Assembly (NCBI RefSeq): GCF_001053185.1
Contig: NZ_CSTD01000001.1
Coordinates: forward strand, 738,333-802,332
Direction of reading: 5' to 3'
Source: Mycobacterium bohemicum DSM 44277
GTDB taxonomy: Bacteria > Actinomycetota > Actinomycetes > Mycobacteriales > Mycobacteriaceae
Length of the DNA stretch: 64,000 bases
The position numbers were made by a program, and so were the translations under genes. Under the pieces are notes generated by a model, which saw only the letters and a program-made list of their open reading frames with translations, had not been told where the DNA came from and ran no database searches. Below are positions 28,591 to 28,634 of the stretch, in pieces (within the stretch, counting starts at the first letter, position 1; every line of letters begins with the position of its first letter).

Positions 28591-28634
28591 GGTCGCCGTC
28601 TTGTCGCTTTCCGGGTACGGCGAACTCGTCCGGG
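28591..28634 (-). promoter_or_regulatory. Guanidine-III (ykkC-III) riboswitch
   Basis: Read on the minus strand, the element starts CCGGACGAG, continues CGCCGTACCCGG and closes with GACAAGACGGCG. These blocks and their order match the class III guanidine riboswitch as I recall it from the Thermobifida fusca crystal-structure RNA. Pairing works as an H-type pseudoknot: CCGG (28633-28630) with CCGG (28614-28611), and CGCCGT (28622-28617) with ACGGCG (28599-28594). The class binds guanidinium and turns on translation. It sits about 107 bases upstream of the gdmH start, directly before a leader ORF. Confidence 0.93.

Follow-up and report, generated by a model that had tools for sequence, protein, structure and literature searches.

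The gene at 27318..28481 (minus strand) of Mycobacterium bohemicum DSM 44277 encodes a ureohydrolase and is preceded by an element resembling a guanidine riboswitch, which raises the question of which compound the enzyme degrades and how the surrounding genes may serve the supply and use of that compound. The locus was analysed within a 64,000-nucleotide stretch of DNA, referred to here as the window. From sequence comparison it is concluded with considerable confidence that a guanidine-III aptamer is predicted to switch on, with guanidine, a gene which starts some 110 bases further on and likely codes for a metal-dependent guanidinase of the GdmH/Sll1077 clade and not an agmatinase. Together with the neighbouring PPE, permease and urease genes, it would likely enable the host to import guanidine and to draw on it for nitrogen.

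The guanidine-III aptamer and its leader

The Rfam family RF01763 (Guanidine-III) was matched on the minus strand at 28654-28590 over the complete model (1-67), with 51.2 bits (gathering score 36) in a cmscan search of the 64-kb window (E = 1.1e-7 against 4227 families; E = 1e-9 on a 601-base rerun). No second copy of RF01763 was found by a search of this whole genome. A sequence-only reading of the same DNA had placed a minus-strand element of this class at 28591..28634, and the Infernal search with the Rfam model which it had proposed gave a significant match on that strand. The position was right, but some 20 bases were missing from the 5' side of the span, as the aptamer extends over 28590..28654. 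Its placing in the leader of a ureohydrolase gene was also correct, as the gene starts ~110 bases downstream and matches PF00491, a domain which spans the whole superfamily.

The three motifs on which that reading relied were found in the order claimed, and both pseudoknot helices, P1 (28633-28630 with 28614-28611) and P2 (28623-28617 with 28599-28593; alignment columns converted to window positions), are intact in 43 of 43 aligned copies, namely the window and 42 aptamers upstream of guanidinase genes (38 distinct rows). Pairing was observed in 418 of 418 cells (100%) over the two helices, a figure which is favoured by the selection of the 42 rows through a motif pattern, and it fell to 29–54% in a control in which one strand was slid. 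The four pairs of P1 are invariant and thus uninformative for covariation. Both-side changes occur in three of the seven pairs of P2; 108 of 500 shuffles likewise gave three such pairs, but none equalled the 23 both-side-changed cells observed or the covariation score. The aptamer is read from this alignment as real and structurally constrained. It resembles the T. fusca guanidine-III RNA, as described in the available part of PMC5696562, in its H-type pseudoknot, CCGG/CCGG P1, 7-bp P2 and the segments CCGGACGAG, CGUACCCGG and GACAAGACGG, whereas 16 nt lie between the end of the T. fusca RNA and a ribosome site and the aptamer described here is separated from the start codon by the ~110-base spacer.

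Among 80 relatives of the guanidinase protein, 19 close ones (L002-L019 and L067; 95–97% identity) all belong to Mycobacterium. The aptamer motif was located upstream of the guanidinase gene in all 19 of these and in 42 of the 80 overall, while the full class III motif was not found upstream with our own pattern in 38 of the 80; a model built from the 42 aptamers and the window added three weaker matches (L028, L042 and L054) and one on the opposite strand (L050). Unlike the Rfam consensus, the third strand is one base shorter in the window and in 19 of 19 close relatives, as it is in L032, L045, L051 and L053. In L009 (9814-9878) and L013 (9816-9880) the aptamer has GAAAAG in place of GACAAG, which is nearly invariant elsewhere, and a lost or altered ligand response is possible there.

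Across 297 genomes of the genus, a Guanidine-III match was obtained in 170 (166 of them exceeding the cut-off) and a guanidinase match at E <= 1e-100 in 70. Twenty five of the 297 are close genomes (94% identity or more along almost the entire guanidinase, the genome of the window included), and in 23 of them the aptamer lies 89–123 bases upstream on the same strand among the matches listed; G234 and G157 also have a match in the genome. The best 30 aptamer loci (L082-L111) comprise 22 with a guanidinase and eight in which a small-multidrug-resistance transporter follows the aptamer, the best model for this transporter being SugE at 79–100 bits, below the cut-off of 126. A Guanidine-I match was found in 19 of 43 genomes (38 relatives without the class III motif by pattern, plus five others), nine of these being above cut-off. 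In M. pyrenivorans (L044, genome G307) the guanidinase gene is preceded by a partial class III motif, and a guanidine-I aptamer apparently lies near this gene on the other strand; assuming contig identity, two guanidine riboswitch classes possibly stand back to back there. Elsewhere in the window, tandem glycine riboswitch aptamers (RF00504; 66 and 44 bits) are located at 45627-45840 (minus strand), ahead of a gene for a glycine cleavage P-protein (PF02347).

A -10-like TAATTT (28660..28665, minus strand) lies directly upstream of the aptamer in the alignment as read by eye, and TANNNT was seen by eye in this place in 20 of 20 leaders (the window and the 19 close relatives), a promoter role being predicted. 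Upstream of the promoter region, a triple GCGCTGAAAA tandem repeat occupies 28797-28826, with three copies found only in the window (L001) among the loaded loci. At 30140-30310 a short gap lies between the gene for a BlaI-type regulator (PF03965) and its neighbour, which we take to be the gene for 6-phosphogluconate dehydrogenase; in close relatives such as L009 this gap is ~1 kb, and one gene, presumably BlaR-like, seems to have been lost from the window at this point.

Three short blocks follow on the minus strand between the aptamer and the start codon. The Shine-Dalgarno (SD) sequence GAGAGGA (28488..28494) is present in 20 of the 20 leaders, and the anti-SD stretch CAUCCUC (28514..28520), exact in 18 of them (not L016 and L067), forms a hairpin with it in the fold computed for the window. 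Immediately 3' of the aptamer, GGAUGC (28582..28587) is complementary to the GCAUCC of the anti-SD stretch and is a candidate anti-anti-SD; as DNA, GGATGC is exact in 12 of the 20 and GATGC in 16, with partial forms in L009, L010, L013 and L014, and the block is absent or changed in L006, L007, L012 and L016. The conservation of these blocks suggests, as the simplest reading, a translational ON switch through SD release, which agrees with what is given of the class in the accessible parts of PMC12186494 and PMC5696562. Guanidine binding would stabilise the pseudoknot, GGAUGC would then capture the anti-SD, and the SD would be freed so that the guanidinase is translated.

It is conceivable, though rather unlikely, that the riboswitch acts chiefly via mRNA stability or transcription elongation and not via SD release, given the long spacer which parts the aptamer from the ribosome site. 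The distance from the end of the GACAAGACGG motif to the start codon is 95–129 bases in the 19 close relatives, against 21–60 in the other 23 motif loci, and guanidine-III has also been described as shielding mRNA from RNase E (PMC12186494, in its available part). Thermodynamic fold calculations point the same way, as no SD release was seen on blocking the aptamer (mean unpaired probability 0.15 free against 0.12 blocked). However, both the SD and anti-SD strands are kept within the spacer, and SD release is preferred here. The leader as a whole was no more stable than shuffled sequence (z -0.56).

Substrate of the ureohydrolase

The best solved-structure matches of the 387-aa protein (ATG start) are 9FEK at 506 bits, which is the guanidinase of Nitrospira inopinata (PMC11410670, available part), and 7ESR/7OI1 at 493 bits, the Synechocystis guanidinase (Sll1077/GdmH); a guanidinobutyrase follows at 161 bits, and the best agmatinase reaches 128. 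The match to both guanidinases is near full-length and includes the GGDHS, DRHVD and SFD-D stretches. According to the same excerpted source (PMC11410670), the guanidine specificity of Sll1077 rests on Thr97 and Trp305, which correspond to Thr101 and Trp308 in the window protein as counted along the structure-match alignment. This threonine was found in 80 of 80 relatives and the tryptophan in 79, the one miss being a locus that ends before that point; a first, narrower pattern for the two residues had matched only 70 of the 80.

The sequence-only reading had expected free guanidine as the substrate on the strength of the RNA, and this expectation is now backed independently by the clade scores and the Thr/Trp pair. 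It had also expected routine annotation to name an agmatinase. Agmatinase, hutG and arginase families were matched, and the NCBIfam agmatinase models remained below their cut-offs (TIGR01230 with 166.3 against 174.3; NF002564 with 202.9 against 302). An agmatinase identity was rejected on these scores, on the structure matches (128 against 506 and 493 bits) and on the retention of both specificity residues, and the protein, which falls in the guanidinase clade, is likely a metal-dependent guanidinase.

That the enzyme is nonetheless a true agmatinase or a hydrolase of some other guanidino compound, with the aptamer as a chance neighbour or as reporter of a different flux, is considered very improbable. 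The routine families and the superfamily-wide PF00491 would accommodate such an enzyme, and the class III pocket also takes small guanidine derivatives including agmatine (PMC5696562, as excerpted). However, guanidinases score threefold above any other solved relative, the agmatinase models fall under cut-off, the specificity residues are conserved in the relatives, and the aptamer lies upstream in every one of the 19 close relatives. The guanidinase of N. inopinata has a weak affinity for guanidine, with a Km of 13.6 mM (PMC11410670, in part), and it is therefore possible that the window enzyme has a better, other substrate.

Agmatinase-annotated guanidinases under guanidine riboswitches have already been published (PMC8390497, available part). 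In the guanidinase cases named in the available parts of PMC12186494 and PMC11410670, which include those of Synechocystis and N. inopinata, the riboswitches are of class I, whereas a class III aptamer is found here. The Synechocystis operon further contains Ni chaperones and an ABC transporter (PMC12186494, same limitation), in place of which a PPE gene, an APC permease and urease are found at the present locus.

The urease neighbourhood and the PPE-permease unit

The guanidinase gene is followed on the minus strand by genes for a PPE protein, an APC permease and urease, the last in the order ureA (gamma subunit, 23655..23957, PF00547), ureB (beta subunit, 23344..23658, PF00699), ureC (alpha subunit, 21614..23347, NF009685 at 1161 bits), ureF (20973..21614, PF01730), ureG (20279..21085, TIGR00101 at 277.5 bits, with the domain from about residue 65 of the ORF) and ureD (19642..20289, PF01774). 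An Rfam 5' ureB sRNA match of 58 bits at 22894-23185 on the plus strand, antisense to ureC, probably reflects the conserved urease coding sequence and not an RNA. No hypA/hypB pair was detected among the scored neighbours, a HypA match being located on another contig.

Guanidinase, PPE, permease and urease genes were found on one locus in 15 of the 19 close relatives; in L002, L004, L008 and L018 the locus stops at a contig end. Three layouts were distinguished. In layout (a) the island has the same direction as urease and occupies the interval from a thioesterase gene to ureA (window, L005, L009, L010, L013, L014 and L019, with L002 and L008 as far as visible); in (b) it is inverted and lies in the ureF-ureG interval inside the urease run (L003, L015 and L017, with only the ureF side in L006 and only the ureG side in L004 and L018); and in (c) it occupies the same interval as in (a) but is inverted (L007, L011, L012, L016 and L067). 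Each layout falls on one side of a branch in the ureC tree, which covers 16 loci, with two changes in total, although the (c) branch is weak (48/78); a poorly resolved guanidinase tree of 20 loci would need four. The arrangement on the ureC tree suggests that the island was probably re-set at least twice, always staying at urease. Repeated independent re-insertions were considered and are not supported, since the ureC tree needs only two changes of arrangement. In L006 (M. sherrisii) a second PPE pair is located at 6934-9668, upstream of the guanidinase, and ureG and ureD were not found on that side.

The retention of the island at urease fits a pathway from guanidine through urea to ammonia, and we infer a functional link: guanidinase would release urea and ammonium, and the adjacent urease would yield ammonia and CO2 from the urea. 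In the more distant relatives, whose loci extend to at most 10 kb on each side, urease matches were found only at L063 and L072, neither of which is mycobacterial, so that the coupling appears to be particular to this mycobacterial group. The N. inopinata cluster of guanidine-I riboswitch, APC permease and guanidinase (PMC11410670, as far as available) is similar in having an APC permease by a riboswitch-controlled guanidinase, no adjoining Ni chaperone and a pathway completed by urease. Unlike that cluster, in which urease lies elsewhere according to the same part of the source, the present locus has another riboswitch class, an added PPE gene, an adjoining urease and a permease that is probably on a separate transcript.

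The PPE gene of the window (25669..26769, minus strand; 366 aa; PF00823 at 229 bits) appears as a single gene, while relatives have two adjoining ones, PPE-A with a tail ending in ERDAAARLIKEAML and PPE-B with a tail of the RQRDVLKRTAATLIKEA type; the two genes overlap in L003, L007 and L009. The first 282 residues of the window protein match PPE-A and the last 100 match PPE-B, in the tree as well, and the two parts are fused in frame. The single gene is interpreted as a shortened pair, produced either by deletion or by assembly collapse. An insertion-sequence fusion as the source of its odd C-terminus was dropped, as the tail is that of PPE-B itself in relatives. In L005 and L013 the PPE-A frames near 11771 and 11794, respectively, have an odd tail, owing to a frameshift or to the wrong frame having been chosen; both (L005_11771p and L013_11794p) are left out of the PPE tree, and the ORF finder missed several PPE-A genes.

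The permease (AA_permease_2; 23997..25664, minus strand) was identified by domain and NCBIfam models, its true start lying inside the ORF. The best NCBIfam model is TIGR03428 ('permease, urea carboxylase system') at 210 bits, far under the cut-off of 740. A PPE-B tail stands directly before the permease in 25 of the 25 close genomes. In 22 of them the permease has the same contig and strand as the guanidinase, and in the remaining three it is on other contigs. In genome G229 (C1:2951773-2953162) the permease is in two frames, a possible decay of the import module.

Between guanidinase and permease no further coding-like ORF of at least 60 aa was found in the window or in three relatives, and the guanidinase-PPE gap of about 460–770 bases contains no credible Rfam match. 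It does contain a repeat, CAGCAAATTCGCAGGAGTTAGCCAG (26904..26928, minus strand), with CAG every 11 nt and a fourth CAG after it, which is a candidate operator of the PPE-permease unit. Such 11-base-spaced CAG repeats occur upstream of PPE-A in the window and in 18 of 18 relatives covering the stretch (L005 and L012 with one departure each), the third CAG being CAT in several loci. The repeat was absent from all other loaded loci, and no second copy at up to two mismatches was found in this genome. The spacing suggests a tandem-site regulator acting at the repeat, and this conserved, genome-unique element within the gap suggests that PPE and permease are probably transcribed as a unit of their own, under an operator of their own, and are not simply part of the riboswitch transcript. 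A single long riboswitch-controlled operon of guanidinase, PPE and permease was not accepted for the same reason.

A PPE-permease module beside two guanidine-degrading systems

PPE pairs and permeases of this kind were also encountered in four genomes without a guanidinase match at E <= 1e-100 (G282, G232, G289 and G268). In the first three, the PPE pair and permease are preceded by genes for a UAAP1-type DUF1989 protein and a TIGR02712 carboxylase (1730–1733 bits, cut-off 1304); G268 has its carboxylase on a separate contig. G282 additionally has an allophanate hydrolase gene and a divergent TetR gene between carboxylase and PPE, and the full gene set was established only there, G232 and G289 having been scored for carboxylase and UAAP1. 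Inspection by eye of L125, the locus of G282, showed a further DUF1989-like frame. In the L125 carboxylase, Asp takes the place of K. lactis Asn1330, as counted in the alignment at this one of the two named positions, 1330 and 1584, and Asp at 1330 is a mark of guanidine carboxylase (PMC11410670, available part). No Rfam family exceeded its cut-off around the carboxylase islands in eight loci, and no upstream sequence common to the PPE-A genes of both island types was found. In the PPE tree, the carboxylase-linked PPE-B proteins fall within a well-supported B clade (100/100), the carboxylase-linked PPE-A proteins join two guanidinase-linked ones weakly (82/58), and one extra L006 pair mixes both types.

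A match to the PPE-B tail (E <= 1e-12) was obtained in 42 of the 297 genomes. The strongest 34, delimited by a cut near E 1e-29 that was chosen after the list was seen, comprise 26 with guanidinase, six with a full-length carboxylase and two (G007 and G116) with neither, whereas either enzyme occurs in 104 of the 297 genomes; the Fisher p of 2e-14 for the 34 is far too small owing to shared ancestry. The eight weaker genomes include none with either enzyme, giving 32 of 42 overall. The PPE pair is some 20 kb from the carboxylase in G194 and on another contig in G051.

The occurrence of one import-like module with two unrelated guanidine-degrading systems is the main reason for proposing that the PPE pair and permease import guanidine. 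With less certainty than is given to the enzyme steps, the PPE protein would carry it across the outer membrane and the permease across the inner membrane. The known PE/PPE nutrient-uptake proteins PE19/PPE51, PE15/PPE20 and PE20/PPE31 (PMC12607722, as excerpted) offer a parallel, in that a PPE family protein (PF00823) is again found in a nutrient-use setting; the present system differs from those pairs in being a PPE-PPE pair in relatives and in its tails, which we read as charged and coiled-coil-like.

It is quite possible, if somewhat less than probable, that PPE and permease are not guanidine importers and serve the uptake of urea, ammonium or amino acids, or merely hitchhike in a nitrogen-gene neighbourhood. 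The gap with its own conserved repeat parts them from the guanidinase, pairs of the PPE-A/PPE-B type are found in other settings, and G238 and G118 have a permease 75–76% identical, which in G238 adjoins genes for glutamate dehydrogenase and a glutamine synthetase-domain protein. On the other hand, in three genomes that gave no guanidinase match a like pair and permease adjoin guanidine-carboxylase genes, the PPE-B tail precedes the permease without exception in the close genomes, and in all but three of these the permease shares contig and strand with the guanidinase. Other pairs of this type were seen in L128 (with M20 peptidase, cyclase and HpaB genes), L131 (aldehyde dehydrogenase and MFS) and L132, and a different APC permease lies near such a pair in L130 and L133; these pairs maybe form a family of substrate-specific uptake pairs.

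Guanidine import is the reading carried forward here. As a tentative proposal, which we rate somewhat below an even chance, a mycobacterial group would possess complete two-membrane guanidine scavenging, with the PPE pair taking guanidinium over the mycomembrane and the APC permease over the inner membrane, as an exchangeable module docked either to a riboswitch-controlled guanidinase with urease or to guanidine carboxylase with allophanate hydrolase. Class III riboswitches, agmatinase-annotated guanidinases and APC permeases beside guanidinase were already known; the present locus is set apart by class III control, the coupling to urease and the PPE partner. In the literature searched, no report of guanidinases in mycobacteria or of PPE proteins in connection with guanidine was found, which is weak evidence as subscription papers were mostly outside reach.

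The routine 'agmatinase' genes of this mycobacterial group would move to free-guanidine metabolism, with guanidine as a predicted nitrogen source, and the linked PPE gives a predicted substrate to a member of a poorly understood protein family. The association of the same type of PPE pair and permease with two unrelated enzyme systems offers a concrete and inexpensive way to test the disputed view that substrate-specific uptake is mediated by PPE proteins across the outer membrane, for which guanidine would be a suitable probe, being a known, labelled and tiny cation with a growth read-out. If the proposal is true, PPE proteins would gain a defined small-cation substrate.
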